The position numbers and the translations under genes were made by a program. DNA of 64,000 nucleotides from contig CP054838.1 in NCBI GenBank assembly GCA_028768545.1, forward strand, positions 4,399,001-4,463,000. Direction: 5' to 3'. The notes beneath the pieces are model-generated. The model was not told the origin of the DNA and searched no databases. It saw only the letters and a program-made list of their open reading frames with translations. Position 1 is the stretch's first letter; each line of letters begins with the position of its first letter. This DNA comes from Desulfobacter sp. GTDB taxonomy: Bacteria; Desulfobacterota; Desulfobacteria; Desulfobacterales; Desulfobacteraceae. Shown here piece after piece: positions 3,452 through 21,834 of this stretch.

Positions 3452-3490
3452 AAAAAAGTCACCCCATGTTACAGGGGTCTGCCGGCCTAT

Positions 3491-3732: not shown

Positions 3733-4866
3733 TTAGGTGGCGGCAGACAGGGGAAGGCGGATCACAAAGGTTGTTCCTTTTTGAACCCGGGACTCCACCT
3801 CGATACGCCCCTTGTGCTGGGTGATGATGCTGTGGGCGATAAAAAGGCCGAAACCCGTCCCTTTTGAACTTTTGGACGAATAAAAAAGTTCAAATATTTT
3901 TTCCCGGGTGGCCATGTCCATCCCGCATCCATTATCCTGGATCCGGATGGAAAGATGATCTTTTTTCTCTTCAATGCAAAGCGTGATAAGATGGTCTTTT
4001 CCAGAACCGTCTTCTGCACAGGCATCAATGGCATTGTCCAGGATATTAACCAGGGCCGACATCATGAACCCCGGGTCTGCCGCCATGACCTCAGGGGCCT
4101 TGTCCGTGACCAGGCAGAACCGGATGGGCCGGCTGCCTATTTTAACGGCCATGGTTTTAGAAATTTCTTCGGCAAAGGCCTTAACCTTTACCGGTTTGAC
4201 CAGGATCTTGCGCTCCTTGGAATACATGAGGATATCCAGAATCAGTTTTTTGATCCGGTCAATGGCCTGATCCAGCATATCAATGCCCTCTGCCATCCCT
4301 TTTGTGTCTTGCCGGGCCATGGCGGACCGGGCCAGGTAAAGCCCCCCGTCCAGGTTGGTCAGCACCCCTTTAACATCATGGGAAATGGTGCCGATCATCA
4401 GGCCCAAAGAAGAGAGATGACTGGTGAGCTTGGACTTTTCCAGGACTAAAAGTTCCAGGGCCTGGGTATATTCAACCAGTTTCTGCCGGGAAATAATTTT
4501 TTCAACTGCCTTGGATACGGACAGGGAAAGAATATCCACATTCACCGGCTTGGTGATAAAATCCATGGCCCCGAATTTCAGGCTTGAAATGGTCAGGTCC
4601 ATATCCCCATGTCCTGTGATCATGAGCACTTCGGTATCAGGATTTTCCTGCTTGACCTGCCTTAACAGCTCCACCCCGCCCATAACCGGCATTTTAATAT
4701 CCGTAATCACAATCAAAGGCCGCGCTTTATGAAAAAGTTCCAGGGCCTGTTTTCCGTCTTCGGCCAGAATCACCTCATATCCCTCATCTGCCAGTGCAAT
4801 CTCAAGCACCTCCCTGATATCTGCCTCATCATCCACAATCATGATTGAAAATTTTGTTTTATCCAT
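3733..4866 (-). CDS. Receiver-histidine kinase hybrid (REC-HisKA-HATPase)
   Basis: A cytosolic 377-residue signalling protein. N-terminal receiver domain (about residues 7-125) with acidic pair D12/D13 and phospho-acceptor D56 in ITDIKMP, then a linker helix, then a kinase core with H-box GTISHDVKG (about 160) and an ATP-binding domain with NILDNAIDA (N-box), DNGCGM (G1) and GTGFGLFI (G2). No membrane segment. It is the last gene of the nine-gene Hdr operon, 11 bp after the heme-motif kinase, and has a GGAGGGACC ribosome site before ATG. The most economical idea is that the upstream kinase phosphorylates its receiver and this kinase relays further, perhaps to the receiver inside HdrA. That is inference. 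Confidence 0.88.
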   Translation of the reverse strand: MDKTKFSIMIVDDEADIREVLEIALADEGYEVILAEDGKQALELFHKARPLIVITDIKMPVMGGVELLRQVKQENPDTEVLMITGHGDMDLTISSLKFGAMDFITKPVNVDILSLSVSKAVEKIISRQKLVEYTQALELLVLEKSKLTSHLSSLGLMIGTISHDVKGVLTNLDGGLYLARSAMARQDTKGMAEGIDMLDQAIDRIKKLILDILMYSKERKILVKPVKVKAFAEEISKTMAVKIGSRPIRFCLVTDKAPEVMAADPGFMMSALVNILDNAIDACAEDGSGKDHLITLCIEEKKDHLSIRIQDNGCGMDMATREKIFELFYSSKSSKGTGFGLFIAHSIITQHKGRIEVESRVQKGTTFVIRLPLSAAT

Positions 4867-4877
4867 GGTCCCTCCTG

Positions 4878-7217
4878 TCAGGAATAGATAATGTCAAGAT
4901 CCTGGTCATGGTGGGCTGGAAAACGGATCACAAAAAGGGCACCTCCCCCTTTTGCACCGGCCGCCCGGATACTTCCCCCGCAATCTTTGATAATGCCGTA
5001 ACTAATGGAAAGGCCCAGGCCTGTGCCCTTGCCTACTTCCTTGGTGGTAAAAAAAGGTTCAAACAACCGGTCTGCAACCCCGGCAGCAATGCCTGTTCCC
5101 GAATCCTGAATTTCAATCACCAGATACTGCCCTCCCCCCTTGTGAACGGGTCTTAATCCTGAACGGGATTTTCTAACCCGGGTCCTGATGGTGATTTCAT
5201 CCCCGTACCCCGGGGTCTGACCCTCTTGTTTCCACTTGGCTTCAATGGCGTCCCTGGCATTCATGATCAAATTGATAAAGACCTGCTCAAGCCGGTCAGG
5301 ATCGGCCAGAATCATGGGCAGATCCTTTTTTTTGTCCCAGACCACCTCTATACCGTGAATCTTCAGCTGCTGGTTGAACATCTCAAAGGTTCTCTGGAGC
5401 ACGTCATTGATCCTCACCGGTACCAGTTTAATTTCAGACTTCCTGGCAAACTGGCGCATGTGGTGGATAATTTTTTCAGCCCGGTCCACATTGGCATCAA
5501 TCTTTTCCATGAGCCGGTTCAGAATCTCATCTGATATTTTCTCTCTTCTGTGTCTCTTTTTAAGGCAGAAACTTGAAGAGGACTTGATCACGGAAAGCGG
5601 CTGGTTCAGCTCATGGGCTATTCCCGTGGACATCTCACCTAAAGTGGCCATTTTGCTGGCATGAAGCAAATGCTGTTCTGTTTCCAGGCGCTGGGTAATA
5701 TCGTTGATGGTAATCAAAAACACTTTTTGCCCGGAATACTCAGAGGGCGATACCCACATATCCACATCAATCACCCTGTTTTGACTGTCCAAATGCTTGA
5801 TCTTGCTGATCTCATGCCGGCGTCTCACCTGAAGTTCAAGTTCAGATCGGTCTTCGGGTCTGAAAAAATCGGAAAAACACGAAGCCAGCATCTTCTCTTT
5901 TGAGTATTGATAGACCTCAAGAGCTTTGATGTTGCAATCAAGGACCTTAAAGTCCGCCTGGTTGACCACAAAGACGGGGTTGGAAATATTGTTGAATATG
6001 GCATGGTATTTTTCTTCTGACCGGGCAAGATCTTTTTCCAGCCGCCTGCGCCGGGTAATATCAATGCTCATCTCCATGGCGGCCGTGACATTGCCCTGTT
6101 CATCCCAAATGGGGGCTGTAATAAAAATCCAATGGGTGGATTCTCCGTTTTTTCCCATGCCTTCGGCTTCACCATAGTGGGAACGTCCATCCCTGAAAGT
6201 TTTATCCACGGGGCAGTCTTCGCATTTTTCATCCCGGCCCTTGTAGGCGTGATAGCAAAGAGACCCCGGCTTGGGGTCAAACCGGTCCTTGAATACCCGG
6301 TTATACCGAAGCAGCCTGTAATTTTTATCCTGGACCGCAATCATGCATGGGGCCTTGTCAAAAAGGTCCTGGTATTCGTCTTTTTGTTTTCTGAGCTTGG
6401 CCTGATTCTGGCCGATCTCATGACCCATCTGCTCAATGGCCCGGCCCAGAAGATCGATTTCATAATCCCGCCCGATTTGAATCCTGGCATCATACTGGCC
6501 CCTGGCTATTTTCCGGGTCCCGTCAATGAGTTTGATGATCGGTTTTTTTACAAACTGAAGAATGGAAAAAAATAAAATCACGGAAATAATAAAAATAGTG
6601 GACAGGGCCAGTTTGATGATTCCCTTTTCCATTTTTAAAATCTGACGGTCTGCATCGTCCAGGGAAACCACCACATCCAGGGTGCCGAGAATTTTCTGGT
6701 TCTGGGGATGGAAATGGCAGTCGCCTGTGGCACATCCCGGTTCATTGCAGATGGGCTGGACAATGCCCAAAAGCCTGTATCCCTCGGATGAAAAAAAATA
6801 ACGGCTCCGTTCTTTAAGAGAGATCCGGTCCGGGGGCGGAGACGTTTTATGGCAGATATCACAGGCCACCGCCTTGATGTCGGCAAAGGTGTCAACTTCA
6901 CCTTCATGGTTGGTGAATTTGACCTGGCCGTCCTTGTTATAAATCCTGATATTCTCAATCCCGGGCTGGGACGCAATATTATTGATGATCTGGTTGATGT
7001 CGTCCCGGGAGTTGAGCATCATGGCATAGTGGGTGCCAAGCTTTATGGAATTGGTCAGCCGGTCTGTGCTGTCCACCAGGGTTTTCATATTCTGGGTTTT
7101 AAGGTTGTTGATATTGACATAGGCCCAGACGGAAATGGAAAAAATCACGGTCAGGCCGACAATGATGATCAGCTTGGAGACCAGGCTGTACCGGATATAT
7201 GTCAAAAACCGGTTCAT
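4878..7217 (-). CDS. Membrane sensor histidine kinase with periplasmic CxxCH motifs, HAMP and two PAS domains
   Basis: 779 residues. Membrane segments at about 13-33 and 200-220 flank a periplasmic domain. This domain contains CDICH (residues 119-123), a canonical heme c site, and C157, C162 and C167-H168, in which CATGDCH is a wider heme-like spacing. HAMP follows (about 225-275). A first PAS has a cysteine cluster (CYHAYKG...CEDCP), and a second PAS spans about 400-520. The kinase core has H-box [17 protein letters not shown] and the ATP lid motifs DSGTGI and GTGLGLSIS. It sits 0 bp after hdrB in the Hdr operon. The periplasmic cysteines suggest sensing of redox state or a gas through covalent heme, which would need cytochrome c maturation. 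Heme loading is not proven by sequence. Confidence 0.88.
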
Positions 7218-8075
7218 CTATCCTCCTGTGAGTTGAACATTTTCACTCAGGTTCAGTTCAAGACCCAGACGGTCCCTGGCAATGCCCATGGCAAGTCCTA
7301 AAAACTGGGGCAGATACAACACGGGAACGGGATGGGCCTTGTCTTGATAGGTTTCAAGATTCATCTGGCACATGGGGCAGACCGTTACAATGCAATGGGC
7401 ATCTTTTGCATTGTCTAAAATTTTGCCCACAAGATATTGACCCACGTCAGGTTTGGTCGTGGCATTGGAGGCGCCGCAGCATTGAGCCCCCATGTCCCAG
7501 TCCAAAACCTGAGCCCCTGCAGCCTGAATCATCTCATCCATGGAATGGGGGGATTCAGGATTGTCAAAAACGGTAAACGGCCGGAGGCATTGGCATCCGT
7601 AATAGGGCGCAACTTTAATGCCTTCCAGAGGATTTGAAAACGGCAGACCCTTTTTCCAGTCCACATCCAGGGATAAAACATCTAAAAGGTGTCTGACCTT
7701 AAGATGGGTTTGAACTGACAGATTCTCCTTTGAAAGCACCTGGTTGATCCCCTCCCTTTTGGCCTTATCCTTTTCCAGGTCGAACTGGGCTGTTTTCAAA
7801 TTCAAATAGCAGGCCGAACAGGGCACCAGGATGTCCAGAGGCTCTTTTTCCGGATCAGGCCGGCTGTTTTTTTCTGCCAGGGCAAGGTTCCGGGCACCCA
7901 GCGCAAGGCCGATACCTGAATCCACAGCCTGGGCAGCCGTGGCCCCGCAGCAGGTCCAGTCGTCAATCTCAAGCAGATCAGCCCCCAGAGAAGTCATCAG
8001 GGCCGTAACAGAAATATCATACTCCTTTGCCGTGCCTTTTAAAGAGCATCCCGGATAGTATAAATAGGATTTCAT
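7218..8075 (-). CDS. hdrB: Heterodisulfide reductase subunit B homolog (HdrB)
   Basis: 285 residues with two CCG domains, which bind the noncubane [4Fe-4S] clusters that reduce the disulfide substrate in methanogen HdrB. First motif: YYPGCSLKG (residue 10), WTCCGATAAQ and CSACYLN. Second motif: GCQCLRP, AQCCGASNA and CPMCQMN. It overlaps hdrC by 4 bp (ATGA). In a bacterium without coenzyme M and B the natural disulfide or thiol substrate is unknown. The neighbouring hdrA, hdrC and mvhD genes indicate a complete electron-bifurcating module. Confidence 0.92.
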   Translation of the reverse strand: MKSYLYYPGCSLKGTAKEYDISVTALMTSLGADLLEIDDWTCCGATAAQAVDSGIGLALGARNLALAEKNSRPDPEKEPLDILVPCSACYLNLKTAQFDLEKDKAKREGINQVLSKENLSVQTHLKVRHLLDVLSLDVDWKKGLPFSNPLEGIKVAPYYGCQCLRPFTVFDNPESPHSMDEMIQAAGAQVLDWDMGAQCCGASNATTKPDVGQYLVGKILDNAKDAHCIVTVCPMCQMNLETYQDKAHPVPVLYLPQFLGLAMGIARDRLGLELNLSENVQLTGG

Positions 8076-8623
8076 ATCCCCTCCTGATGCTGCACCGCCT
8101 CAAACAGGTCTGCAAGTTTTCCAGGACCCCGGCCGGGCAGTTCGGGTTTAATCTTCCCCTTTTTTAACAGGGAAATGCCCAAAGGGGCATAACTCAGAGG
8201 GGCCATTGGATTTCTCATTCCCAGAAAATACCGGCCCATAAGTTCCACTTCACGGACCCGCCCGTATTGGCGGACATTGTCCAGAAAAAGACGGTAAAAC
8301 AAATCTGACTTTTTTGAATTTCCAAGTTTAAGCCGGGCCCCGATCTGTTTGAGTTCCCCCATGGCCCGGGTCAGTTCAAGCCCCCGGGGACACCTGAGGG
8401 TGCACCAATAGCAGGAGGAACACATGGTAAAACTGCGGCTGGCAAAAAGAAGGTCAAGCCGGTCTGTCAGCACCATCCGCCACATCTGCCGGGGGGTAAT
8501 ATCCATGAATTCGGCATTGGGGCAGGAGGCCGAGCAGGTCCCGCACTGGATACAGGATCTGACCATTTCTTTTACCTTTGCCACTGACGCCTGAATCTCT
8601 TCTGGGCAATCTGTCACAGGCAT
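8072..8623 (-). CDS. hdrC: Heterodisulfide reductase subunit C homolog (HdrC)
   Basis: 183 residues, carrying two [4Fe-4S] sites: CIQCGTCSASCP (about residues 18-29) and CSSCYWCTLRCP (about 68-79). It passes electrons between HdrA and HdrB. No membrane helix, so the complex is predicted to be soluble. It overlaps hdrB by 4 bp and follows the receiver-containing hdrA by 22 bp, consistent with co-translation and complex assembly. Confidence 0.92.
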   Translation of the reverse strand: MPVTDCPEEIQASVAKVKEMVRSCIQCGTCSASCPNAEFMDITPRQMWRMVLTDRLDLLFASRSFTMCSSCYWCTLRCPRGLELTRAMGELKQIGARLKLGNSKKSDLFYRLFLDNVRQYGRVREVELMGRYFLGMRNPMAPLSYAPLGISLLKKGKIKPELPGRGPGKLADLFEAVQHQEGI

Positions 8624-8645
8624 GGGGGTTCTCCTTTTTATCAGG

Positions 8646-11600
8646 TTACAGGGTCAGGACCCCGTCAATTACATTCAGATAATGCTGTTCCTCAATTCCG
8701 TCGACCTGGGCAGCCTTGCTGGGGCAGACGGCCGCACAGATCCCGCATCCCTGGCAGGCCACGGCATCCACCACAATTTTTTTGATTTCAGGATCCACTG
8801 CCCTGGCATTAAAGGGGCAGGCCGAAATACAGGCAAGACACAGACTGCAATAGGCCTGTCGAACCCTTGCCGCAGCCCCGCCAGAAGATCCGGATAAGAT
8901 CCCCACGGCCCTTGCAGCCACAGCCCTTGCCATGGCCACGGCCTCACCCAGAAAACAAGGGCGGATACAAAGACCGCAGGCAAACACCCGGGGATGAAGC
9001 CCATCCACGGGCCTAAATTTGGGATCTGCTGCCTTGAAAAACCCAAACTCATCCTTCTGGGCCGTATACCTCTGGGCCAGCGAAGAAGACAGCTCGGGCA
9101 CCACCCCTATGGCCAGGACCACGGCAGATGCATCAATCTCCAAATCCCTGTCCAGGATGGGATCATGACAGGTCACCCGGGGCAGGCCCTGGTCATCGGC
9201 AAGAATTTGGGGGGCTGTTTCTTTATCATAGGGAATAAATACCACCCCGGCTTCCCTGGCCCGGGTATAATAGGCTTCCAAAAACCCCGGGGTCATCATG
9301 TCCCTGTAAAAAATATAAATTTGAAGATCAGAAAATTTCGTCTTCAAGTCCAGGGCCCGGTCAAGGGAATGGGCGCAGCAGACCCTTGAACAATAATTTT
9401 TGTCTTTTTGTCTGCACCCATGGCATTGAATCATCACAAGACAATCCATTGATTCAGGGTCTATGGTTTGGGCCTCCACCCCCAGATCAAACGCTTTCTG
9501 GGTATACACATCCCCGGGGTATTCTTGGACAGGATCTGCCTCATGCCCGCCCGTGGCAAGGATGGTCACCCCGTGGTCCACCCGGACCGGGGTCTCGTTT
9601 TCATCTTGGACAATGGTGACCCATCGGCCTGAAAGACCTGAACTATCCGTCACTTGAGAGGAAAGATGAATGCTGACCCGATCATGGGCGGTTAAATCCT
9701 CAACCAGGGTATTTAAAAACTGAGAGGTATCGTCTCCCCCCTGGGCCTGACGGATCCAGGACAAATTTCCCCCAAGACGAGGGCTCTTTTCCACCAGATC
9801 CACATGGAATCCGCTGTCTGCAATGGCCTTGGCGCAACTCAGCCCTGCAATCCCCCCCCCGACCACAAGGGCCCGGTCAAAAAAGGGATCGGCCGGGGTT
9901 AAAACCGGATCAGCGGATTTCAGTTGTGAACTAACACGGCAGATCCCACGGGCCAGCTCCGGGTTTAATTTTTGAACCAGTTCATTGGCTTTAATCTTTT
10001 CTTTTGTGGGGCCGAGTCTGCCTGCCATGCCCAGAATGTCCAGCCCTTTGACCAGGTGTAAGGGCAGACCTGCAGCCTGCCCTGCCATGGCCCGTCGCTC
10101 CTTGGAAATCAAAAAAGGACACCCCCCAATCACCAGACGGTTGGCCGAACTTTTTTCAATAGTGGACAAGGCCTTTTCCCAGGCATCAGGACTGCAAAGG
10201 TCATCCATCATCTCAACAGCGTCAATGGCTGTATCCTTTTTGACCCTGGCCAGGATCTCATCCTTGTCCAGATTTTTGCCTAAAAACCTTGTACAGGGGC
10301 ATACCAGGACAAAAATCTTGGGAGCCGACCGTTTAAAATCACCGCTCATAGGGGATTGCCCCTCATCTGCCCGAACCGAAGAATCATCATGAATGGTGGC
10401 TTTTGCCTTTTTGCTTGTCCTGCCGGCACCGGTCATGGTTTCCATGGCAGACATGGCAGCGGCAGAACCCAGGGTCACACTGGTTTCAATATCCTTTAGC
10501 CCGGCAAGGCCGCCGCAGGAAAAAATTCCCGGCCTTGAGGTATGGTCCGGCTCAGACCAGGGCGGGTCAATAAACCCCCATGGGTTGGTCTCAAGACTTA
10601 AGTCATCAATCATCTTCTTTGATCTAAAATCCTGCTTCTGGCCGTTGGCCAAAACCACCATATCAAACTCTTTTTCCAGGATCCGGCCGTCCAATACGGC
10701 ATAACGCACGGTGATGCCGCAGGTGTCGCCCTCCAGACAAGGTGCCACAGAATGGACCCGGGCCCGGATAAACCCCACCCCCTGCTCCAGGGCCGTTTCC
10801 TTATAGGTGTCAAAGTCTTTGCCAAAGGTTCTCAAATCCATATAAAAAATATCAGCCGTTTCAAGGTCAGGATTTTTCTGGAAGGCCAGCAGGGCCTGCT
10901 TGATGGAAATCATACAACAGACACTGGAGCAAAACCCATTTTCCCGGTCTCTTGAGCCCACGCATTGAAACCAGGCAATCCGCTTGACAGGAAGGCGGGC
11001 CGCAGGAAAAACCTCAGGCCCGGTATGACTCAGGCTTCTTTCAAACTCCATGGCTGTCACCACCCCGGGGATAGTCTTGTATCCATAAATATTTTTATCC
11101 TGGTCCGGAGAATAAAACCCTGCACCCATGGCCAAAACCACGGCATCGACCTCTCGTATGGATGCATGGGCCATTCTGAACTTTTCATAGACTTTTTCCA
11201 CCATGGCAATGACCTTTTCCGGTTCAAAGGGCTTGGTCACATAATCCAAAGCCCCCTCTTTCATTGCCGTAACCGCCGAATCCACCTCTGCATAGGCCGT
11301 CATCATGATCACCACAAGTTCGGGCATCATTGTCCGGGCATGTCCAAGAAGCGCCACCCCGTCCATGCCCGGCATCTTGATATCCGTGAGCATGATTTGA
11401 AAGTCCAGGCTCTCCATCAATTCCAGGGCCTGGCGTCCGGACTCGGCACTATGCACATTATACCCTTCAAGGCTGAGCCATTCTGTCATTGAATCCCGGA
11501 CAATGGCCTCGTCATCCACCACCAGGATTCTAAACCCTGCCCTGTCCGGGGCAATGAGATGAATGGCCTGGGTAGGACAGGCCTGTTCACAGGCCCCGCA

Positions 11601-12101: not shown

Positions 12102-12225
12102 AGGACCTCCATGGTTATTTTACTTACCCCCCAGACAAATTATTGAAATCATGGGGATTTGTTTTTCATTTTGGCCAGACGTAAATACCATGCGTGGCCA
12201 GTTTCTGCCCTATAGGCTCTGCCGG

Positions 12226-13347
12226 TTATTGAATGCCGACCACTTCAGGATACTCCTGGGCGTTAAACACGGAAAAAGGAGGTGGATCATCGCTTCCGGG
12301 ATGATAATCAAAGGCCTTTTGAACCTGCTTTGCCACGGTGGAGAATAAGGTTGCCACAGGGATATTGGCAGGACATGCCTGGGTGCACTGACCGCAGCCC
12401 ACACAGGCATGGCTCATATGGGCAAGGCGGGTAAGATGATAAAACAGGGTATCTGACGGCAGCTTAATCTTCCCCCACTTGTCTGCCCATTGGTGGTATT
12501 GAATGGGCTCATGGGAAAACACATCCGTGTTGAACACGCATTCCCGGCAATAACAGACCGGACAGACATTGCAGCAATTGTAGCAGTTGATGCAAGCCCC
12601 GAAAAACTGCCCAAGCTTGTCCAGAGAGTCTGTCTCCTGGGTCACCTTTTCAGCCATGGATTCAAAGGCCGCCTCACGGGTTTTGATCAATTGAGCGACC
12701 ATGGGTTCCCTTTCCCCGGGCAGACTGGCCTCTTTTAAGGCACATTTTTCCAGGACCTCTTCGCCTTTTGGGGTGGCGCCCTCAATCACAAGGCCCTTTT
12801 CCCCTGAATTTGCGTAAAAAAAGAATCCCAAGTCCGCATGGTCAGGCAGAGGGGAGGTACAGACCGAACAGCTCCGGGCAGGGGCAAGGTCCGGATTGCA
12901 AGGATCGGCAAAGACCCTGGCGGCCCAGTCATTTTCTTTAGCCCCCCCATTTTTCATATAGGTTTGAAAGGCGTCGCGCTCCAGGGCCATGGGGCAGTCC
13001 ATACCCATGATGATCAGCTCTTCCCGGCTGGCCTGGTTCAGTTTTTCAAGTTCGATAAAGGCAGAAATTTCACAGGGCCGAAGCCACACAGCCGTCTTTT
13101 TCCCGGCTTTTTTAAAGGAAAGCCTTGAGACCATCCGGGCCGCATTGATATAAAAACAAGGGCTTAAAAAAACCGCATCATCAATTTCTTCCGGCGATGC
13201 AATCAATGACGGCATCACAGAGATCTTGTCCGGCTGCCTCACCGGAAGAACCAGGGCATCCACAATTTTCTTTTCCATCATGGTTTTCATCAGGATTTTA
13301 AGATCCGCTTCCATGCCCTTTTTAGACGGTTCAATACTTGCTATCAT
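12226..13347 (-). CDS. FrhB/FdhB-like iron-sulfur flavoprotein (F420 hydrogenase/formate dehydrogenase beta family)
   Basis: 373 residues. The central part has CSVCTSPLPDHADLGF, a pattern of the FrhB/FdhB C-terminal domain, after FADPCNPDLAPARS. The C-terminal third carries cysteine-rich CINCYNCCNVCPVCYC and CVGCGQCTQACPANIP, that is, two ferredoxin-type clusters. In the family such subunits pass electrons between a flavin or deazaflavin donor and iron-sulfur partners. Within this operon it lies between mvhD (29 bp) and the receiver-HdrA gene (124 bp downstream). It probably docks a hydride donor or ferredoxin to HdrA. Exact donor unknown. Confidence 0.8.
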   Translation of the reverse strand: MIASIEPSKKGMEADLKILMKTMMEKKIVDALVLPVRQPDKISVMPSLIASPEEIDDAVFLSPCFYINAARMVSRLSFKKAGKKTAVWLRPCEISAFIELEKLNQASREELIIMGMDCPMALERDAFQTYMKNGGAKENDWAARVFADPCNPDLAPARSCSVCTSPLPDHADLGFFFYANSGEKGLVIEGATPKGEEVLEKCALKEASLPGEREPMVAQLIKTREAAFESMAEKVTQETDSLDKLGQFFGACINCYNCCNVCPVCYCRECVFNTDVFSHEPIQYHQWADKWGKIKLPSDTLFYHLTRLAHMSHACVGCGQCTQACPANIPVATLFSTVAKQVQKAFDYHPGSDDPPPFSVFNAQEYPEVVGIQ

Positions 13348-13376
13348 GGGTCACCCCTTTTTGATAATAATTGATC

Positions 13377-13802
13377 TTAGGATACTCTTTTTTGCCTGGG
13401 CGACTGGCAAGGGCCAAGTTCCCTGATCTGATCCGTGAACCGGGTCATGATTTTTGCAAATTCAATCCCGTCACTGGCCCCGATCCAGGTCAGGCGAATC
13501 CGTTCCCTGTCAATGCCGAATTTAGGAAGGATCTCCTTGAGCAGTTTCATCCGCCTTCTGGCCTTGAAATTTCCGTTAATATAGTGGCAGTCTCCTGGGT
13601 GGCAGCCGGATACCACCACGGCATCCGCACCTTCAAGAAAGGCCTTGATCACATATTGAGAATCCACCATCCCCGTGCACATCACCCTGACCAAACGAAC
13701 GTTTTCAGGATAGGTCAGCCGTGAAGTTCCGGCCAGATCCGCAGCCGTATAGGTGCACCAATTGCAGACAAAAGCAATAATGACCGGTTCATAATTTTCC
13801 AT
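13377..13802 (-). CDS. mvhD: MvhD-type hydrogenase/HdrA-linking iron-sulfur subunit
   Basis: 141 residues. MvhD links a hydrogenase or other electron donor to HdrA through a [2Fe-2S] cluster. Seen here: FVCNWCTYTAADLAGTSR near the N-terminus and GCHPGDCHYINGN at about residues 68-80, the cysteine sites of the family, plus the conserved VRVMCTGMV. It sits 15 bp after the HdrA-GltD gene and 29 bp before the FrhB-like gene. No hydrogenase large or small subunit is present in the window, so electrons probably enter by the GltD-like or FrhB-like parts. Confidence 0.92.
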   Translation of the reverse strand: MENYEPVIIAFVCNWCTYTAADLAGTSRLTYPENVRLVRVMCTGMVDSQYVIKAFLEGADAVVVSGCHPGDCHYINGNFKARRRMKLLKEILPKFGIDRERIRLTWIGASDGIEFAKIMTRFTDQIRELGPCQSPRQKRVS

Positions 13803-13817
13803 TCTTCCTCCTTAGGT

Positions 13818-16800
13818 CTAAGGGTTGGCCATGATGGTCGGGGCAAGGACCCCGCTGATTTCGGCAAACATCTGTTTTTTCATAAAATGACGGCTTGTGG
13901 CAGCGCCTGAGGGACAAAACCCTGAACAGCTCCCGCATCCTTTGCACAATGTCGTATTCACCACAGCCACATTAAGGCGATAGTCAAAATCAATGGCCGA
14001 ATAGGGACACAAATTGATACAGGTCTGGCACCCGGCACAAATGTCCGGGTCAATGTATGAGGTGGTGGGAGAAATTTGAACCTCTCCTTTTGCCGCCAGA
14101 GCCAATGCCTTGGCAGCGGCACCCGAGGCCTGGGAGACCGTGTCCGGTATATCCATGGGCTTTTGGCAGCACCCGCTTAAAAACAGGCCGTCAGTCGCTG
14201 TGTTCACAGGTGCAAGCTTTGGATGTTCCTCTAAAAAGAATCCGTCTGCGCCCTGGTTTACGCCCATGATCCGCCCAAATGCCTCGGCATCGGATCTTGC
14301 CTCCATGGCCGTGCAGAGAATCACCATGTCCACAGGCACCCGGATCACTTTTGATATGAGAGTGTCTTCGGCAACAGCCACAAGCTTGCCCTCTTCCTCA
14401 GGTGCCTGGGCCCGGTCAGATACGCTGGCCACTTTTCCCCGGATAAAGATGGTGCCCTCTTCCTGGCACCGGCGATAAAACTCTTCATACCCTTCCCCGA
14501 AACAGCGCATATCAATATAAAAATCAAATACCTGGGTATCATGGCCCACCTTTTCCTTGATCAGATGGGTATATTTAAGGGCATACATGCAGCAAACCCT
14601 GGAACAATACTCATGGTGGTTCACATCCCTGGACCCGATACAATGGACAATGGCCACGCTTTGGGGCGGTGTGAGAAAACCGCCCTCCTTATCCCGCATG
14701 AGGATCTGCCCCCCTGTGGGTCCGGTGGCATTGGAAAGCCGCTCAAACTCTAGGGAGGTAAAGACATTGGGATACTTTCCATACCCGTACTGGGGCATGA
14801 CTGACGGATCAAGCGTGTCGTACCCGGTTGCCATGATAATGGACCCCACCGTAAGAGAGCGGTGTTCAGGTGTCATGGAATGATCAATGGCATTGGCCTC
14901 GCAGGCATCTGCACAGGCCATGCATTCACAGCAGATCCCGCAGTTCAGGCACCGGCCGGCCTCTGCCAGGGCCTGGTCCTGACCAAACCCTGCCTCAACC
15001 TCACAAAAATCTGCCACCCTTGTCCGGACAGATTCATGATCCGTCTTGGCCCTTTCCAGGACCTGGATATTTTTTGGAATGGGGCCGTATTCAGGGACCT
15101 GGGGAGCTAAAGTCTCAAACAATGAATCCCTGGATTCAAAATCCTCACCCGCCTTTTTTTGGGCAAGCCGTTCATGGATATGGCCGGCCGCCCTTCTGCC
15201 CTGGGCAATGGCCTCCACAACCGTGGCAGGCCCCAACACCATATCCCCGCCTAAAAAAATCAACGGCTGAGATATTTCCAAGGTGTCAGGACAGACAGAG
15301 ACCAGGTTTTTAGCATCAATTTCAAGGTCTTTTGTTTCAAGGCCTTCAAGATCAGGGTATTGGCCGATGGCTGAAATAAAGGTATCACAGTCCATGGCAA
15401 ACTCACTGTTTTCAATTATCACCGGCCGGCACCTGCCGGATTCATCAGGTTCTCCCAGCTGGTTTCTGGAACAGACAAGACTTGACACCCGCTCATTTTC
15501 CCCTTCAAGCCTGACCGGGTTGGTCAGGCATTCCAGCACAATCCCCTCTTCAACGGCCTGGACAATTTCCTCTTCATAGGCCGGCATCTCATTCTGGGTT
15601 CGGCGATAGACCAGGGTGACCTGGCACCCTTTGATCCGCCGGGCAGATCGTGCCGCGTCAATGGCCACATTGCCGCCGCCCACCACCACCACCTTTTTTT
15701 CGCAGCCCGTATCACGCCCAAGGTTGATATCCCTTAAAAAAGACAGGGCATCCATGGCACCTTTAAACTCGTCTTCACCCTGAATGTTGAGCTTGAGCGG
15801 TGCCTGGGCCCCCAGGCCCAGGAAAACAGCGTCAAATCCCCGGGATTTAAGGGAATCTAAATTGATATCCCTTCCCAGTCGTGAGTTGGGGACAAACTCA
15901 ATGCCATGGGCAAAAATATAATCGATCTCTTTGTCCAGAATTTCAGGCGGAAGCCTGTAATCGGGTATCCCGGTCCTGAGCATGCCCCCGGGCTTTTTTT
16001 GAGAATCAAAAAGACTCACCTGGTATCCCTCAAGTCTCAGATAATAGGCGGCCGTCAATCCGGCAGGACCTGCACCGACCACGGCCACCTTTTCCTCTCT
16101 GTCGCAAATTTCAGGAACCGGCAAAGGATCTGCCATGTCGGCTGCAAAGCGTTTAAGCTGACGGATGGCCAAAGGCTGGTCCACCTCTTTGCGCCGGCAG
16201 CATCCTTCGCAGGGATGGGGACAGACCCGGCCCAGCACCCCGGGAAGGGGGGCTCGTTCCATGATCAGTTCAAGGGCCCGGGTATATTTTTTCTGATTGA
16301 TGAGCTGGATATATCCCTGGACATTGATCCCGGCAGGACAGGCGGTCACGCAGGGGGCCCGGTCTGCCTTTTCTATATTATAGGTAATGGGAATGGCCTG
16401 GGGAAAAGACCTGCCAATGGCCTTGCGCTGGGCCATGCCCATGTCCCAGGCATTGGGAATGGAGACAGGACACACCTTGGCGCATTCCCCGCACCCTGTG
16501 CACAAGGACTCGTTCACATACCGTGGAGACCTTGTGACCTCCAGGGTAAAATTACCCACAAATCCTGAGACCTGGGTGACCTGGCTCATGGACAAAAGTT
16601 CAATATTGGGATTCTGGGCCACCTCCACCATTTTAGGGGTGCCGATACAGGCGGCACAGTCCAGGGTGGGAAAGGTCTTGTCAAACTGGAGCATATGCCC
16701 GCCAATGGTGGTATCTTTTTCAATGAGATAAACATGGTACCCGGCATTGCCCATGTCTATGGCCGCCTGCATCCCGGCAATGCCCCCGCCGATCACGGCC

Positions 16801-17246
16801 ATTTCAGGATGGACCTTGGACATGCCTGCAATCAAGGGGGTGTGAAACTTTACCCGGTGGACGGCTGCCGTGACCAGGTATTTGGCCTTGGTCGTGGCCT
16901 GGTCCGTATCTTCAGTGACCCAGGAGACCTGCTCCCTTACCGATGCCATCTGAAAATAATAGGGGTTGAGGCCTGACCGCTCACAAACCGCCATAAAGGT
17001 GTTCCCGTGAAGCCTGGGAGAACAGGAGGCCACCACCACCCGGTTGAGCCGGTAGTTGCTGATATCGGATTCAATCATGGCCTGGCCCGGCTCCGAACAC
17101 ATGAACTTATAATCCCTGGCCACGGCCACGTGGTCAAGGGTCTGGGCATATGCCTGAACTGCAGAGACATCCACACGGCCTGCGATATTCACCCCGCAGT
17201 GACAGATATACACCCCGATCCGCAATCCATCCGGCTGGTCAGTCAT
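13818..17246 (-). CDS. HdrA fused to a GltD-like NAD(P)H oxidoreductase (HdrA-NfnB/GltD fusion)
   Basis: 1142 residues. N-terminal HdrA part: ICHCGVNIAG cysteine motif, FAD motif VIGGGIAGMQ, DCAACIGTPKM and one [4Fe-4S] site CTGCGECAKVC. An inserted glutamate-synthase-small-subunit-like module (about 320-780) has CVTACPAGINVQGYI, CPHPCEGCCRR, FAD motif VVGAGPAGLTAAYY and NAD(P) motif VVVGGGNVAIDAAR, then RTQNEMPAYEEE. HdrA then resumes with CLNCGICCECMACADAC, YCSRVCCMYA and two terminal ferredoxin sites. The role expected is to bring NAD(P)H electrons to the Hdr flavin. Start set at 17246 by the AGGGAGGGAAAAT-ATG site; a longer frame to 17363 would only overlap the kinase gene. It overlaps that gene by 8 bp. 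Confidence 0.92.
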   Translation of the reverse strand: MTDQPDGLRIGVYICHCGVNIAGRVDVSAVQAYAQTLDHVAVARDYKFMCSEPGQAMIESDISNYRLNRVVVASCSPRLHGNTFMAVCERSGLNPYYFQMASVREQVSWVTEDTDQATTKAKYLVTAAVHRVKFHTPLIAGMSKVHPEMAVIGGGIAGMQAAIDMGNAGYHVYLIEKDTTIGGHMLQFDKTFPTLDCAACIGTPKMVEVAQNPNIELLSMSQVTQVSGFVGNFTLEVTRSPRYVNESLCTGCGECAKVCPVSIPNAWDMGMAQRKAIGRSFPQAIPITYNIEKADRAPCVTACPAGINVQGYIQLINQKKYTRALELIMERAPLPGVLGRVCPHPCEGCCRRKEVDQPLAIRQLKRFAADMADPLPVPEICDREEKVAVVGAGPAGLTAAYYLRLEGYQVSLFDSQKKPGGMLRTGIPDYRLPPEILDKEIDYIFAHGIEFVPNSRLGRDINLDSLKSRGFDAVFLGLGAQAPLKLNIQGEDEFKGAMDALSFLRDINLGRDTGCEKKVVVVGGGNVAIDAARSARRIKGCQVTLVYRRTQNEMPAYEEEIVQAVEEGIVLECLTNPVRLEGENERVSSLVCSRNQLGEPDESGRCRPVIIENSEFAMDCDTFISAIGQYPDLEGLETKDLEIDAKNLVSVCPDTLEISQPLIFLGGDMVLGPATVVEAIAQGRRAAGHIHERLAQKKAGEDFESRDSLFETLAPQVPEYGPIPKNIQVLERAKTDHESVRTRVADFCEVEAGFGQDQALAEAGRCLNCGICCECMACADACEANAIDHSMTPEHRSLTVGSIIMATGYDTLDPSVMPQYGYGKYPNVFTSLEFERLSNATGPTGGQILMRDKEGGFLTPPQSVAIVHCIGSRDVNHHEYCSRVCCMYALKYTHLIKEKVGHDTQVFDFYIDMRCFGEGYEEFYRRCQEEGTIFIRGKVASVSDRAQAPEEEGKLVAVAEDTLISKVIRVPVDMVILCTAMEARSDAEAFGRIMGVNQGADGFFLEEHPKLAPVNTATDGLFLSGCCQKPMDIPDTVSQASGAAAKALALAAKGEVQISPTTSYIDPDICAGCQTCINLCPYSAIDFDYRLNVAVVNTTLCKGCGSCSGFCPSGAATSRHFMKKQMFAEISGVLAPTIMANP

Positions 17247-18972
17247 ATTTTCCCTCCCTTGGGTTATCATTTTCACGGTCTGTTCCATTTTCCCGGTCTG
17301 TTTCAATGGGCGGCAGCTTGATCTGAAAACAGGTGCCCTTTCCTTCCAGGCTTTCCACCTCAATGGTTCCCTTGTGCCGCTCTATGATGCCGTAGGCTGT
17401 GGACAGGCCTAAGCCCACCCCATAGCCCTGGTTTTTGGTGGTAAAAAAAGGTTCAAATATATAGGGAAGGTCAGAAGAAGAAATCCCCTTGCCGTCGTCC
17501 CTCACCCGAAGAGATACCCGGTTTAGTTCAGTATCGTAGAGGGCATCCACCCGGATGTGGCCGGCAATCTGCCCGGAGTCTTCCGAAGCTGATTCTTTCC
17601 GGCCGGATCTTCCCGGGCTTAGGGCCACGGCGTCTATGGCGGAAATGGCGTTGAACACCAGATTAATCACACATTGCTGAAGCTGATTAAAATCGCCGTA
17701 TACCCTTGGCAGGTCAGAATCATAGGAGGATTTAAGATCAATATTACTCAGTTCAATCTTATGGTTGCACAGCATCAGGCTGTATTGGACGAGTTCTGCC
17801 ACATCCACGCTGGAAAACTCCAGTTTTGATTTTCTGGAAAATTTGAGCAGGCCTGACACAAGTTCGGAGCACCGATAGGTTTCCCGGTCAACCATTTCAA
17901 GGTAATCCCTGAACCGGTTCTGATTCTCCAAAGTTAAAGGCCCCTGGTCCACAAGCCGGATCATCAGCCGGATATAGTTTAAAATCCCGGACAAAGGATT
18001 GTTGATCTCATGGACAATGCTGGCGGACAATCGCCCTAAAGACATCATCTTTTCCTGGTGGAGCACCTTTTCCTGGCCCTGAATGGTCTGTTCCAAATCC
18101 CGGATTTTCTGGAGATCCCGGATAAAAAGGACCAGGCCCCGGGTCTGGCCCTCCTGGATCACAAGAGACCCTGAAATCTGCACCGGAATCCGCTCCTGCT
18201 CTTTTCCTTTCATCATGGTCTCATAAAGAAAGAGCCGGTCTTTTCCCCCGTACCCCTGGCGCACCAAATTCTGTTTTAAAGCCATAAAATCATTGTGAAC
18301 AAAAAAATCGGCCAGTTTTCGGGTGTGAATCACCTGGGATTTAGGATAGCCCAGAAGAGATTCCATGGCATTATTGTAGGTTATGACTTGGTCATTCTTG
18401 TTGCATCCCAAAATCCCGTCCATTGAATTTTCAATGAGACGGCGCTGGTAATTTACATTTTGGATCAGCTCTGCAGAAGTTTTTAAATTTTCCTTTTCAA
18501 GAAGGCAGGTATAATCTGAAAGGGCTTTTTTATCCTGGTATCTGCCCATTGCCCGTTCCAAAGCCAGGTGAAGCCTGGCATCATCCACAGGCTTTGTGAT
18601 AAAATCAGAGGCGTCCTGCTGAAGGGCAATGGTGGCCTTCTCAAGATCGGCAAATCCCGTGGTGACGATCACCTCGGTTTCAGGATAAAGGGCCTTTGTT
18701 TTTTCAAGGACCTCAAGCCCGCTAAGCCCGGGCATTTTGATGTCGGTGATGAGAATCTGGGGACGGTGGGCGCAGAGAAGCTCCAGGCCCTGGGTACCAT
18801 TGGAAGCACAAATCACCTCATAGCCGGCATCGGTGAGGCTTAAATTCATGATCTCCCGGATATCGGGTTCATCATCTATGAGCAGTACCTTCCAATCCGA
18901 CCTGGCATCCAGCAATACATTGGTGGTCCGTTTGGCCTGCCTTTTTGATGGTAAATCAAAAACAGTGGGCAT
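17239..18972 (-). CDS. Receiver-PAS-histidine kinase, first gene of the Hdr operon
   Basis: 577 residues, soluble. Receiver domain about 28-145 with acidic D33/D34 and phospho-acceptor D77 in ITDIKMPGLSG. PAS about 180-290 (MDGILGCNKNDQVITYNNAM). Kinase core with H-box LSASIVHEINNPLSGILNY, N-box INLVFNAISAID, then DDGKGI and GVGLGLSTAYGIIE. Strong ribosome site AAGGAGGTGCCCC-ATG. It is the promoter-proximal gene downstream of the sigma-54 promoter at 19005-19020. It overlaps the HdrA-GltD start, which suggests translational coupling of a signalling protein to a redox enzyme. Confidence 0.9.
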   Translation of the reverse strand: MPTVFDLPSKRQAKRTTNVLLDARSDWKVLLIDDEPDIREIMNLSLTDAGYEVICASNGTQGLELLCAHRPQILITDIKMPGLSGLEVLEKTKALYPETEVIVTTGFADLEKATIALQQDASDFITKPVDDARLHLALERAMGRYQDKKALSDYTCLLEKENLKTSAELIQNVNYQRRLIENSMDGILGCNKNDQVITYNNAMESLLGYPKSQVIHTRKLADFFVHNDFMALKQNLVRQGYGGKDRLFLYETMMKGKEQERIPVQISGSLVIQEGQTRGLVLFIRDLQKIRDLEQTIQGQEKVLHQEKMMSLGRLSASIVHEINNPLSGILNYIRLMIRLVDQGPLTLENQNRFRDYLEMVDRETYRCSELVSGLLKFSRKSKLEFSSVDVAELVQYSLMLCNHKIELSNIDLKSSYDSDLPRVYGDFNQLQQCVINLVFNAISAIDAVALSPGRSGRKESASEDSGQIAGHIRVDALYDTELNRVSLRVRDDGKGISSSDLPYIFEPFFTTKNQGYGVGLGLSTAYGIIERHKGTIEVESLEGKGTCFQIKLPPIETDRENGTDRENDNPREGKYD

Positions 18973-19004: not shown

Positions 19005-19020
19005 AGCAAGCAGTGTGCCA
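19005..19020 (-). promoter_or_regulatory. Sigma-54 promoter of the Hdr operon
   Basis: On the minus strand TGGCAC (19020-19015) and TTGCT (19009-19005) are separated by exactly 5 bp, a perfect -24/-12 match. The first gene starts about 33 bp downstream of the -12 box. A sigma-54 activator gene lies close by (20237-21625). Confidence 0.85.
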
Positions 19021-19106: not shown

Positions 19107-19136
19107 TTGCAAATTTGCAATCTTATAAATTTGCAA
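19107..19136. promoter_or_regulatory. Probable activator binding sites upstream of the Hdr sigma-54 promoter
   Basis: The perfect 14-bp palindrome TTGCAAATTTGCAA (19107-19120) is followed by a second AAATTTGCAA (19127-19136), about 90-115 bp upstream of the -24 box, which is the usual place for enhancer sites. Confidence 0.55.
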
Positions 19137-19395: not shown

Positions 19396-19429
19396 TGAAG
19401 AAAAAGGGACCTGGAGATGACCAGGTCCC
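19396..19429 (-). terminator. Rho-independent terminator of the mrp pseudogene
   Basis: GGGACCTGG (19406-19414) pairs perfectly with CCAGGTCCC (19421-19429) around a 6-nt loop. Read on the minus strand it is followed by TTTTTCTTC. It lies 36 bp after the stop codon of the Mrp gene. Confidence 0.85.
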
Positions 19430-19464: not shown

Positions 19465-20101
19465 TCAAGAAAGGGCTGCGACCTTTTTGGCCAGGGATTT
19501 AAAGGCCTTTGACACGGGTGAAGACGGAATTTCTGCCTGGATAGACCGTCCTTTATCCTCCATGGTCACCAGGGCCGGATCCAGAGGGATCTTGCCCAGA
19601 AAATCAATCCCCTCACTCTCGGCGGTGCGCATTCCCCCTCCGCTCCCGAAAATATCCAGCACATCTCCGCAGGTGGGACAGGTATATCCGCTCATATTTT
19701 CAACCAAACCGAAAATATCCATTTTGACCTGATGACAGAACCGGATGGATTTTCTCACATCAGCCAGGGCCACTTCCTGTGGGGTGGTCACAATGATGGC
19801 TCTGGCATCTTTGATGAGCTGGGGTGATCTTTTTGTCTTCATTGACCTCAAGCCGCTCTTCAAGGCCAAGCATTCTGGGGATATCCGGTCCGTGTATGTC
19901 GATATCCATAAGCCCCACATTAAATCCCATGGTGGCCAGGGCTGTGGCAAGGTTGACCGATACGCTGGATTTTCCCACCCCGCCTTTGCCGCTCATGACC
20001 ATAAACTTATGTTTGATTTTACTTAAGGCCTTTTGGACAAGGGGATCAGAATCCGGTTTGGGCGCATGCCCCATGATTTTATTTTTAGGTTTTACTTTCA
20101 T
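19465..20101 (-). pseudogene. Mrp/NBP35-type iron-sulfur carrier ATPase, broken by an internal out-of-frame deletion
   Basis: N-terminal part in one frame (to about 19815): Walker [15 protein letters not shown] and [17 protein letters not shown]-terminal part in another frame: [30 protein letters not shown] with the CxxC of the family, and FGSGGG. The join lies in AAGATCACCCCAGCTCATC. Compared with intact Mrp proteins, about 60 residues are missing between them, including the DxPPGTGD segment, and the frame shifts. The product could not be functional as encoded. Mrp proteins carry [4Fe-4S] clusters to apo-enzymes. An assembly or sequencing deletion is the alternative. It keeps a promoter-like site and a terminator. 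Confidence 0.85.
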
Positions 20102-21625: not shown

Positions 21626-21750
21626 ATTCCCCCGCCTTTTTGAATACCCCCTTATCCCATACCCTAGCGGTCAAATCAAGTGGATGAATCAGGATCTTTT
21701 TATTTATCTACTGACCTGTCCGTAGTAAATTTTAAAACGGTCTTAAGATT

Positions 21751-21791: not shown

Positions 21792-21834
21792 GCTTCCAGA
21801 CCCTTGACCTCGCGGTATACCCCAGGAAAAGATC

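Follow-up and report, generated by a model that had tools for sequence, protein, structure and literature searches.

Why should an Hdr redox enzyme be encoded in one operon with three histidine kinases, and in which direction would signals pass between them? This question is raised by a nine-gene operon of Desulfobacter sp., located in the 64,000-nucleotide stretch of DNA analyzed here (the window). How much energy many anaerobes have at their disposal depends on electron-bifurcating enzymes, and to our knowledge none of these has been reported to be under two-component phosphorylation control. Among the matches listed in our searches of an open-access library there was likewise no such enzyme, and no description of a receiver-bearing HdrA with kinases. 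We give a probability of about one half to the reading that the activity of the Hdr complex is set by phosphorylation of a receiver domain inside HdrA via the kinases K2, K3, and K1, with K2 serving as a periplasmic heme sensor.

A preliminary description had listed nine operon genes, and all nine ORFs are present on the minus strand with their coordinates unchanged (Table 1). Its statement that the genes overlap or are tightly spaced is borne out as well. Taking ATG 17246 as the start of HdrL (its ORF opens at 17363), K1 and HdrL overlap by ~8 nt; HdrC and HdrB overlap by 4 nt, and the gaps are 15 nt (HdrL-MvhD), 29 nt (MvhD-FrhB), 22 nt (HdrA-HdrC), 0 nt (HdrB-K2), and 11 nt (K2-K3), leaving the 124 nt between FrhB and HdrA as the one loose joint. 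Pfam recovered the domains that had been proposed, namely FlpD/MvhD, CCG in HdrB, Response_reg in K1, K3, and HdrA, and HATPase_c in all three kinases. Terminator-like hairpins lie on both sides of the operon, but a single one is weak evidence because the scan returned 29 sites against 21.8 expected. A plasmid-borne origin was set aside because tblastn against the plasmid collection gave nothing at E<=1e-100.

Table 1. Operon genes and associated features, in window positions
Feature	Positions	Strand	Basis
Terminator-like hairpin 3' of K3	3461..3478	-	Hairpin scan
K3, REC-HisKA-like-HATPase_c, 377 aa	3733..4866	-	Pfam, alignment
K2, TM-periplasmic heme-c-motif Cache/PAS-like sensor-TM-HAMP-PAS-PAS-HisKA-HATPase_c, 779 aa	4878..7217	-	Pfam, predicted model, Foldseek
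Four invariant Cys in first cytoplasmic PAS of K2 (C291, C321, C332, C335)	6213..6347	-	26/26 rows
K2 second heme-like motif, C162-X4-C167-H168	6714..6734	-	K2-like alignment
K2 heme-c motif CDICH, residues 119-123	6849..6863	-	K2-like alignment
HdrB, two CCG domains	7218..8075	-	Pfam; cysteine motifs align with 8rvv_B, 5odc_B
HdrC, two [4Fe-4S] motifs	8072..8623	-	Pfam; NCBIfam HdrC models below cut-off
REC-HdrA, tandem HdrA (two FAD units) with internal receiver, 1151 aa	8646..12101	-	Pfam, alignment, phmmer, Foldseek
Receiver domain within HdrA, residues 190-306	11184..11534	-	Pfam Response_reg 6.6e-30
FrhB/FdhB-like iron-sulfur subunit, 373 aa	12226..13347	-	FrhB_FdhB_C below cut-off
MvhD/FlpD electron-transfer subunit	13377..13802	-	Pfam PF02662 2.8e-54
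HdrL, HdrA-GltD fusion	13818..17246	-	Pfam, NCBIfam; likely start ATG 17246
K1, cytoplasmic REC-PAS-HisKA-HATPase_c kinase, 577 aa	17239..18972	-	ORF, Pfam, alignment
Sigma-54 (-24/-12) promoter motif, TGGCACACTGCTTGCT	19005..19020	-	Exact match, before K1
TTGCAAATTTGCAA palindrome plus second 2-mismatch copy, candidate activator site	19107..19136	-	Motif search
Terminator-like hairpin between mrp and operon	19406..19429	-	Hairpin scan

To call the enzyme a complete Hdr/Mvh module, as was done at first, is an overstatement because neither MvhA nor MvhG is among the operon ORFs. For the same reason, an H2-dependent Mvh-Hdr complex (MvhADG-HdrABC) encoded by the operon was rejected. The parts of an HdrABC-type enzyme are present: HdrA combines an FAD/TrxR-like unit with ferredoxin units (Pfam, phmmer, and Foldseek, with the HdrA model matching 5odi_A at E=1.4e-33), MvhD is encoded, and HdrB carries cysteine motifs that align with those of known structures (Table 1). 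These aligned cysteines are presumably the ligands of two noncubane clusters. In common with the HdrABC-MvhD(AG) complexes (5odc, 7bkb, 8rvu), the operon has the FAD/ferredoxin arrangement of HdrA, the double-CCG motifs of HdrB, HdrC, and MvhD. It differs from them in lacking MvhAG, with the HdrA-GltD fusion and the FrhB-like subunit as likely donors, and in having both a tandem-fused HdrA with an internal receiver and kinases in the operon.

HdrL scores 768.6 bits with the NCBIfam HdrA2 model and 499.6 bits with PRK12771, both below cut-off, and its GltD part is likely an NAD(P)H-oxidizing module. The FrhB-like subunit reaches 21.2 bits with FrhB_FdhB_C (Pfam cut-off 23.3) and has no NCBIfam match at E<=1e-5; its relatives occur in 86 of 194 genomes (E<=1e-50). 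Judged from sequence, HdrL-MvhD-FrhB-like-REC-HdrA-HdrC-HdrB probably constitutes a cytoplasmic, NAD(P)H-linked, electron-bifurcating (or confurcating) disulfide reductase. By analogy with the respective families, NAD(P)H or another donor would enter via the GltD unit of HdrL or via the FrhB-like subunit. Electrons would then move via MvhD to the FAD centers of HdrA, and onward to ferredoxin and through HdrC-HdrB to a disulfide, a route for which the domains and cysteine motifs are in place.

The receiver is located at the end of the inserted ferredoxin of HdrA, where the ferredoxin rejoins the FAD domain. HdrA residues 7-181 match 5odc_A 145-309 and residues 317-487 match 320-494 (phmmer), with the receiver between them, a placement that favors regulation through phosphorylation. 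Its phospho-site consists of the acidic pair D196 and D197, D240, T268, and K290. In an alignment of 79 rows, D240, T268, and K290 are kept in 79/79, and D196 and D197 in all 78 rows that cover them (one row is without these first two columns), as expected for a two-component receiver. Because these residues are invariant, the original proposal that the HdrA receiver is a phosphorylation target is supported. Given the position of the receiver at the junction between ferredoxin arm and FAD domain, phosphorylation might open or close the electron path through that arm. The predicted HdrA model (16 sequences, pTM 0.70) does not fix the interdomain contacts.

The candidate sensor is K2. C119, C122, and H123 are present in 28/28 K2-like rows, some of them near-copies, which again favors phosphorylation control; in the second motif, C162 is kept in 27/28 rows, C167 in 28/28, and H168 in 27/27. 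The transmembrane stretches were read off long helices of the predicted model, which resembles the heme-c sensor 3b42 (Foldseek E=1.5e-4, rank 8). As in sCache_heme, CXXCH occurs in an extracytoplasmic Cache-like domain, according to all 28 rows and the predicted fold, and we infer that this periplasmic domain binds heme c. K2 is not a standard PF11845 (DUF3365) sensor, as that profile is absent at E<=0.01. PF21563 gives 24.3 bits (cut-off 27) and matched in 12/13 members at E<=0.01, and a single-sequence phmmer search of the sensor against PDB sequences had a best E of only 0.13. As far as the available parts of the sources go, GSU0582 and GSU0935 (3b47, 3b42; PMC3460858) and sCache_heme (PMC12889525, a preprint) similarly place a periplasmic Cache/PAS-like domain with CXXCH before HAMP and a transmitter, whereas in K2 a further C-X3-4-CH motif is conserved and PF11845 is not matched in the scans made.

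Both K1 and K2 have the phospho-His and ATP-binding motifs of orthodox histidine kinases. H321 of K1 and its receiver residues D33, D34, D77, T105, and K127 are found in 16/16 aligned REC-PAS-type kinases. The HisKA match of K3 is 16.9 bits (Pfam cut-off 26.9), and among 37 aligned K3-type kinases H163, D12, D13, D56, and K106 are kept in all and T84 in 36. The acid after the His, D164 here, is Gly in 26/37, and this counts against the proposed phosphorylation.

We suggest that K2 would read the periplasm with its putative heme-c Cache/PAS-like domain, plausibly sensing either NO or how reduced the cytochrome pool is. Together with K3 and K1, acting as cytoplasmic relays or phosphatases, it would set phosphorylation of the HdrA receiver, as the invariant phospho-site and the gene linkage described below would have it. 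A more specific proposal, whose chances we put somewhat below even, is that a kinase with a periplasmic, possibly diheme, c-type-heme sensor, of a family common to Hmc/Tmc, phosphorylates the HdrA receiver at the ferredoxin-arm joint, switching the bifurcating Hdr directly and making ferredoxin/disulfide chemistry in the cytoplasm responsive to the redox state of the cytochrome pool in the periplasm. In many sulfate-reducing bacteria HdrA has such an internal receiver, mostly with a heme-motif membrane kinase nearby, which suggests that the cell may turn an energy-conserving enzyme up or down directly, and not via genes alone. The enzyme itself contains the presumed control element, at the joint of an electron-carrying arm. 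Gating of this arm by phosphorylation, if it occurs, would give direct access to the steering of bifurcation and would provide a path for signals from the periplasmic cytochrome network to ferredoxin and thiol metabolism in the cytoplasm.

The preliminary description spoke instead of a sensory electron-bifurcating complex. Its Hdr, kinase, and receiver parts are all there, but the anatomy better fits the reverse of an Hdr sensor, with the periplasmic heme-motif domain of K2 as sensor and HdrA as output. Were Hdr the sensor, electron flow or the flavin state of HdrA would alter the shape or phosphatase rate of the receiver, and the change would be fed back to K1-K3 and the cell. In favor of this, K1 and K3 are soluble and have receivers, so that a cytoplasmic phospho-network exists, and receivers can serve as phosphate sinks. 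However, in receivers the signal normally runs from a kinase to the output domain joined to the receiver, K2 already possesses a sensor domain whose heme motifs are invariant, and the operon encodes no output that reads the network, so we regard an Hdr sensor as quite unlikely.

Of 194 genomes from the order, 73 contain a match to the operon's HdrA, and the matches come from 51 of the 120 genera sampled. The locus set comprised 78 receiver-HdrA loci, from which 25 with <6.5 kb and 21 with <5 kb downstream were left out of the respective counts. Conservation of the kinases with the Hdr genes in relatives, on which the original interpretation had been staked, holds for two of the three. With at least 6.5 kb downstream, a K2-type kinase is found at 42/53 receiver-HdrA loci, which favors phosphorylation control, a K3-type kinase at 32/53, and any kinase at 48/53, whereas the REC-PAS type of K1 is found at only 12/53. 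At 20 other HdrA loci, hand-picked for contig room, there is no K2-type kinase (p=2e-10) and any kinase at seven. Receiver-less sister operons gave 0/11 for K2 (p=9e-7 on 45/57 versus 0/11) and 1/11 for any kinase, this one being on the opposite strand (L246). In the majority of the relatives examined, kinases adjoin receiver-HdrA, and this goes beyond chance, although the co-occurrence may reflect few events because the receiver and the kinases may each have been gained once.

The scope of these counts is as follows. The distance between the end of HdrA and the start of K2 reaches 6.7 kb (49/52 within 5.3 kb), and a few K2 genes may therefore escape the sets defined by 5 kb. G136, G191, and G206 (3/73 matched genomes) stand outside the locus counts; G243, G280, and G526, whose matches start after the receiver, were left out; L131, its HdrA start cut by a contig end, was not counted as receiver-bearing; and L184 and L126 were kept with broken HdrA frames. 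L252 was scored as kinase-free, but a K2 fragment is present at its contig edge. From 20 sister loci, four were skipped (L232, which has a REC-PAS-type kinase; L233, a receiver-bearing fragment; L234; and L239) and five were removed for having <5 kb downstream (L235, where a REC-PAS-type kinase lies upstream, L236, L241, L247, and L248), while L249, of rearranged type, was kept.

Exceptions also occur. Eleven of the 53 loci are without a K2-type kinase and five without any kinase, yet their receivers keep the phospho-site, which counts against gating by adjacent kinases. Four relatives, none with K2 or K3 beside the operon, either have lost the receiver or carry a degenerate one. In three relatives from the phylum the receiver is degenerate and the fetched stretch is without K2/K3, as phosphorylation control would have it; on the opposing side, D240 persists in all three, other kinases are nearby, and one of these genomes (G262) has a full-length K2 elsewhere. 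In an HdrA tree made by a quick method (rows of at least 1050 aa if receiver-bearing, 840-1100 aa if receiver-less), receiver-bearing proteins form one group, in support of our proposal. The single receiver-less row inside it (L130) is sister to a receiver-bearing locus without kinases.

The linkage might also be simple drift of gene neighbors, in which a generic redox-locus kinase cassette has come to lie next to numerous redox operons without any relation to the receiver fusion. The K2 family is indeed common (112/194 genomes at E<=1e-100) and also lies by Hmc/Tmc. Drift is very improbable, and disfavored, in view of the absence of K2 from the control and sister sets (which have L218 in common) and of three loci (L116-L118) where K2/K3 remain beside REC-HdrA although HdrBC has moved or K2 is inverted.

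Hmc/Tmc loci account for 14 of 20 K2 loci away from receiver-HdrA (hand-picked from K2 matches, with L190/L191 excluded), a point in favor of phosphorylation control. ORFs there that consist of a receiver only have a length of just 117-283 aa, and none of the enzyme subunits is labelled as receiver-fused, so that the usual target of the K2 family may be a free receiver or regulator. At one K2 locus (L197) a receiver-less HdrA is present in the stretch as well, which points against gating. Genome G045 is presumably the D. multivorans strain of a published hmc study. In D. multivorans, four histidine kinases lie beside hmc, according to the accessible part of that study (PMC5109826). The regulatory genes of Hmc/Tmc loci belong to the same K2, K3, and REC-PAS-kinase families as those of the operon; at those loci the kinases accompany a membrane cytochrome complex, whereas in the operon they accompany a soluble Hdr complex that contains a receiver of its own.

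Locus L123 of genome G033, which we take to be the hdrL/hdrA4 locus VIII of Desulfobacterium autotrophicum HRM2, has a receiver in its HdrA, and the fetched stretch surrounding the locus contains no kinase. The K2 of this genome adjoins an HmcF/TmcB-family gene that scores below the HmcF cut-off. Locus VIII is reported to hold hdrL, mvhD, an FdhB-type gene, hdrA4, hdrC, and hdrB together, and the accessible part of the report does not mention a receiver in HdrA4 (PMC2702500). The accessible parts of PMC11887813, PMC6491731, PMC4046663, and PMC4641369 are likewise without mention of a receiver in HdrA. Among response regulators with enzyme outputs, a type called Mycobacterium-like, combining REC with thioredoxin reductase, also joins a receiver to a flavoprotein of the thioredoxin-reductase fold; the domain combination is only named in the part of the source available (PMC5847659), whereas here the receiver is inserted within the HdrA FAD unit.

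Transcription of the operon would be set separately, probably by sigma-54. The earlier remark that no DNA-binding regulator is encoded stands for the operon itself, but the promoter motif TGGCACACTGCTTGCT and an OrpR-like sigma-54 activator gene (20237-21625), which has a PAS domain and not a receiver (Pfam), lie upstream. Exact sigma-54 matches number two in the window against 0.49 expected, and 7/100 shuffles reach two. The same layout recurs in the nearest relative under a looser pattern; the strict pattern is not general, with two operon-strand matches in 1.27 Mb over the 78 loci, one of them near a labelled gene.

These elements bear on another explanation, that the kinases control transcription in trans through sigma-54 activators or other response regulators, with the HdrA receiver mainly a docking site or structural insert. 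The promoter motif, the sigma-54 regulators at 20/53 loci (REC-bearing ones included, some as kinase plus REC-S54 pairs), and the degenerate receivers retained in three genomes speak for it. The sigma-54 regulators, like small receiver genes at 24/53 loci, also count against direct gating. A phospho-site kept in all 79 rows at covered columns exceeds the needs of docking, however, and neither the operon nor the upstream activator supplies a receiver-type DNA-binding regulator. We consider control in trans rather unlikely.

Control of the operon by the OrpR-like activator was entertained as possible and not adopted: the TTGCAAATTTGCAA box has no other match in the window at <=2 mismatches, so orp-type promoters are without it. 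By itself the box is not beyond chance (29/100 shuffles reach two matches). A related box lies at the same place in locus L110.

Reading frames and Pfam matches bore out the preliminary description of a nine-gene minus-strand operon, which runs from 18972 to 3733 in the order K1, HdrL, MvhD, FrhB-like, REC-HdrA, HdrC, HdrB, K2, and K3 (K1 to K3 are histidine kinases). Adjacent genes overlap or are separated by 0-29 nt, except for 124 nt between the FrhB-like and REC-HdrA genes. The same description had called the Hdr/Mvh module complete, but MvhA and MvhG are both absent from the operon genes.

Features of the operon and of other parts of the window
Feature	Position	Strand	Remark
K1, REC-PAS-kinase	first operon gene, 18972 end	-	Pfam
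HdrL, HdrA-GltD	second gene	-	Pfam
K2, membrane kinase	eighth gene	-	Pfam
K3, REC-kinase	last gene, 3733 end	-	Pfam
Terminator-like hairpin ahead of operon	19429-19406		hairpin type frequent by chance
Terminator-like hairpin past operon	3478-3461		hairpin type frequent by chance
Sigma-54 promoter motif TGGCACACTGCTTGCT, exact	19005-19020		32 nt upstream of K1 start codon
Second exact sigma-54 promoter motif	21893-21908		inside orp-like neighbourhood
mrp/NBP35-type gene	19465-20101	-	upstream of operon
orp-like neighbourhood	20237-24162
Inverted copies of 1322 nt	38178-39499 and 46800-48121		100% identical

The exact sigma-54 motif occurs twice in the window versus 0.49 expected, and at least two matches arose in 7 of 100 shuffles. 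In the nearest relative (genome G008, locus L110), TGGCATAATGCTTGCT occupies the equivalent position; both the window and L110 have a TTGCAAATTT-type box upstream.

REC-HdrA is a tandem HdrA in which residues 7-181 and 317-487 match residues 145-309 and 320-494 of solved HdrA (5odc_A) in a sequence search, and residues 994-1147 match 489-648. The receiver (residues 190-306) fills the joint between solved-HdrA residues 309 and 320, the place at which the inserted ferredoxin leads back into the FAD unit. A moderate predicted model of REC-HdrA (pLDDT 72.8, pTM 0.70, 16 sequences) placed HdrA structures on top in Foldseek (5odi_A, E=1.4e-33). The cysteine motifs of HdrB are in place on alignment with solved HdrB, MvhD is a clear family match (Pfam, 2.8e-54), and the GltD unit points to NAD(P)H as a putative input of HdrL. 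Several HdrA-type matches elsewhere in the same genome (e.g., G000:C1:2499451, 1933198, and 2113394) are broken by a single TGA, which would fit selenocysteine HdrA.

All 79 aligned sequences carry receiver residues D240, T268, and K290; D196 and D197 occur in 78 of 78, the remaining row being truncated at that point. All of these are also invariant in a 16-sequence alignment (A1) of named contigs and the window. As judged by its residues, the HdrA receiver is probably kept as a working phospho-acceptor.

In a search of 59 genomes, own included, matches spanning the receiver came from 20 relatives and from the window's own genome; G038, where a contig end truncates the match, and G025, which turned out to be receiver-less, also matched. 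Across the order, 73 of 194 genomes (own included) and 51 of 120 genera hold a REC-HdrA match at E<=1e-150, and the matched range spans the receiver fully or partly in 72 of these 73 genomes, G038 being the exception. From other genomes, 78 receiver-HdrA loci were fetched and annotated; their 52 K2-type genes include 48 on the operon strand. At the 53 loci with at least 6.5 kb downstream, the kinase count took in the entire fetched stretch and both strands. Full K2 is found at 37 of these loci, K2 lacking its sensor part (K2b) at five, K3-type kinases at 32, K1-like REC-PAS-type kinases at 12, small receiver genes at 24, and sigma-54 regulators, REC-bearing ones included, at 20. At L116 and L117, HdrBC is absent after REC-HdrA and a protein of ~770 aa with two HdrC-like matches precedes HdrL; REC-HdrA is still adjoined by K2 and K3.

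Two control sets were compared: 20 other HdrA loci, hand-picked from the list of the 59-genome search, and 11 sister operons that have no receiver and encode subunits of matching kinds, for which 9 of 20 candidate loci had been set aside (L218 is common to both sets). By Fisher tests, whose p values overstate independence because rows share descent, K2-type kinases are enriched at receiver-HdrA loci over other HdrA loci (42/53 versus 0/20, p=2e-10) and, at loci with at least 5 kb downstream, over sister operons (45/57 versus 0/11, p=9e-7), as are kinases of any type (48/53 versus 7/20, p=4e-6; 52/57 versus 1/11, p=1e-7). Counted per genome (n=194; K2 at E<=1e-100, matches without the sensor part included), 67 hold both the K2 family and receiver-HdrA, 6 receiver-HdrA alone, 45 K2 alone, and 76 neither. 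L212, L216, and L226 represent a different HdrA-MvhD-FrhB locus type, with a kinase, small receivers, and a REC-sigma-54 regulator.

In a quick-method HdrA tree (88 rows, receiver removed), receiver-bearing rows form one group with L130 as the sole receiver-less row inside it. Its sister L123 (G033), which we take to be D. autotrophicum HRM2, has a receiver, but its fetched stretch holds no kinase. At E<=1e-150, 19 of 395 genomes of the phylum (own included) matched; 11 of these lie outside the order, where profile scores indicate a receiver in five genomes (G256, G559, G597, G354, and G264); at two of these loci, L250 and L253, receivers are intact residue by residue. In a single family, HdrA of three genomes (G490, G598, and G262; loci L255, L256, and L257) holds a degenerate receiver, inserted at the same point. 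All three have lost T268 together with at least one residue of the acidic pair, and retain D240; K290 is retained in G262 and gone in the other two. Their loci lack K2 and K3 and have other kinases. A close K2 is present elsewhere in G262 and absent from the other two genomes, where only kinase-part matches of ~240 bits occur. Receiver loss or decay goes with missing K2/K3 beside the operon, over few events and with G262 and L253 as exceptions, the latter combining an intact receiver and a kinase-free stretch with K2-family genes elsewhere in its genome.

The periplasmic domain of K2 lies between two predicted membrane helices and carries heme-binding motifs: CDICH in 28 of 28 K2-like rows and a second motif, C-X3-4-CH, in 27-28 of 28. 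Four Cys are conserved across 26 of 26 rows in the first cytoplasmic PAS. The best Foldseek matches to the predicted sensor domain (pLDDT 79.9) are WalK-type extracellular domains; the sensor GSU0935 (3b42), which carries one c-type heme according to PMC3460858, ranks eighth (E=1.5e-4). The matching chemoreceptor sensor family, PF21563, is found in 12 of 13 K2 members at E<=0.01, the window K2 scoring 24.3 bits against a cut-off of 27. A preprint (PMC12889525) describes Cache domains that bind NO and carry c-type heme; the profile of that family, PF11845, gives no match to K2. Because Gly follows the phospho-site His in 26 of 37 K3-type relatives, K3 might act as a relay or phosphatase instead of an orthodox kinase.

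Away from receiver-HdrA, at least two Hmc/Tmc subunits occur at 14 of 20 K2 loci hand-picked from K2 family matches, compared with 4 of 78 receiver-HdrA loci in the fetched stretch. Subunit names follow the NCBIfam equivalogs that family representatives matched above cut-off (HmcA, B, C, E, F; TmcA, TmcD). At several of these K2 loci, K2 and K3 occur together with a REC-PAS-type kinase, and in G033 and G025, without K2 at the Hdr operon, a K2 gene adjoins an HmcF/TmcB-family gene that does not pass the HmcF cut-off. Because of this recurrence, K2-K3 looks like a control cassette of periplasm-linked electron-transfer complexes that is joined also to this Hdr operon. A protein family of ~180 aa (c2; no Pfam match at E<=1e-5, no NCBIfam match at E<=1e-10) recurs at K2 loci L190, L193-L197, L202-L206, L208, and L211, nearly all Hmc/Tmc, accompanied by a double universal-stress protein.

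The sequences directly show the order of the genes, their domains, the position of the receiver and conservation of its phospho-site, the linkage to K2/K3, the heme-binding motifs, and the sigma-54 promoter motif. In the mechanism we propose, K2 would attach heme and might respond to NO or to the redox state of cytochromes; phosphotransfer to the HdrA receiver could then gate the ferredoxin arm of HdrA. The electron donor and acceptor of the Hdr complex are likewise putative assignments. Passages of PMC2702500 describe an HRM2 hdrL/hdrA4 locus with FdhB, HdrB, and HdrC genes, and these passages do not mention a receiver. PMC5847659 names REC-thioredoxin reductase proteins, a precedent for joining a receiver to a flavoprotein of this fold. 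The Hdr complex and the two-component parts are each known; among the matches listed from the open-access literature, we found neither a receiver inside HdrA nor the joining of the two systems.

Upstream of the operon, the mrp/NBP35-type gene has an out-of-frame internal deletion of ~60 codons relative to the intact L110 copy and is either a pseudogene or an assembly error. The orp-like neighbourhood encodes a PAS-sigma-54 activator and MinD/ParA-type ATPases with ferredoxin motifs, and we take it to resemble D. vulgaris DVU2103-2109 (cf. PMC3897727). Elsewhere in the window, the 1322-nt copies each contain a DDE transposase gene, and the 7.3 kb between them holds an ISL3 transposase and genes for peptide ABC transport; the whole looks like a composite transposon.
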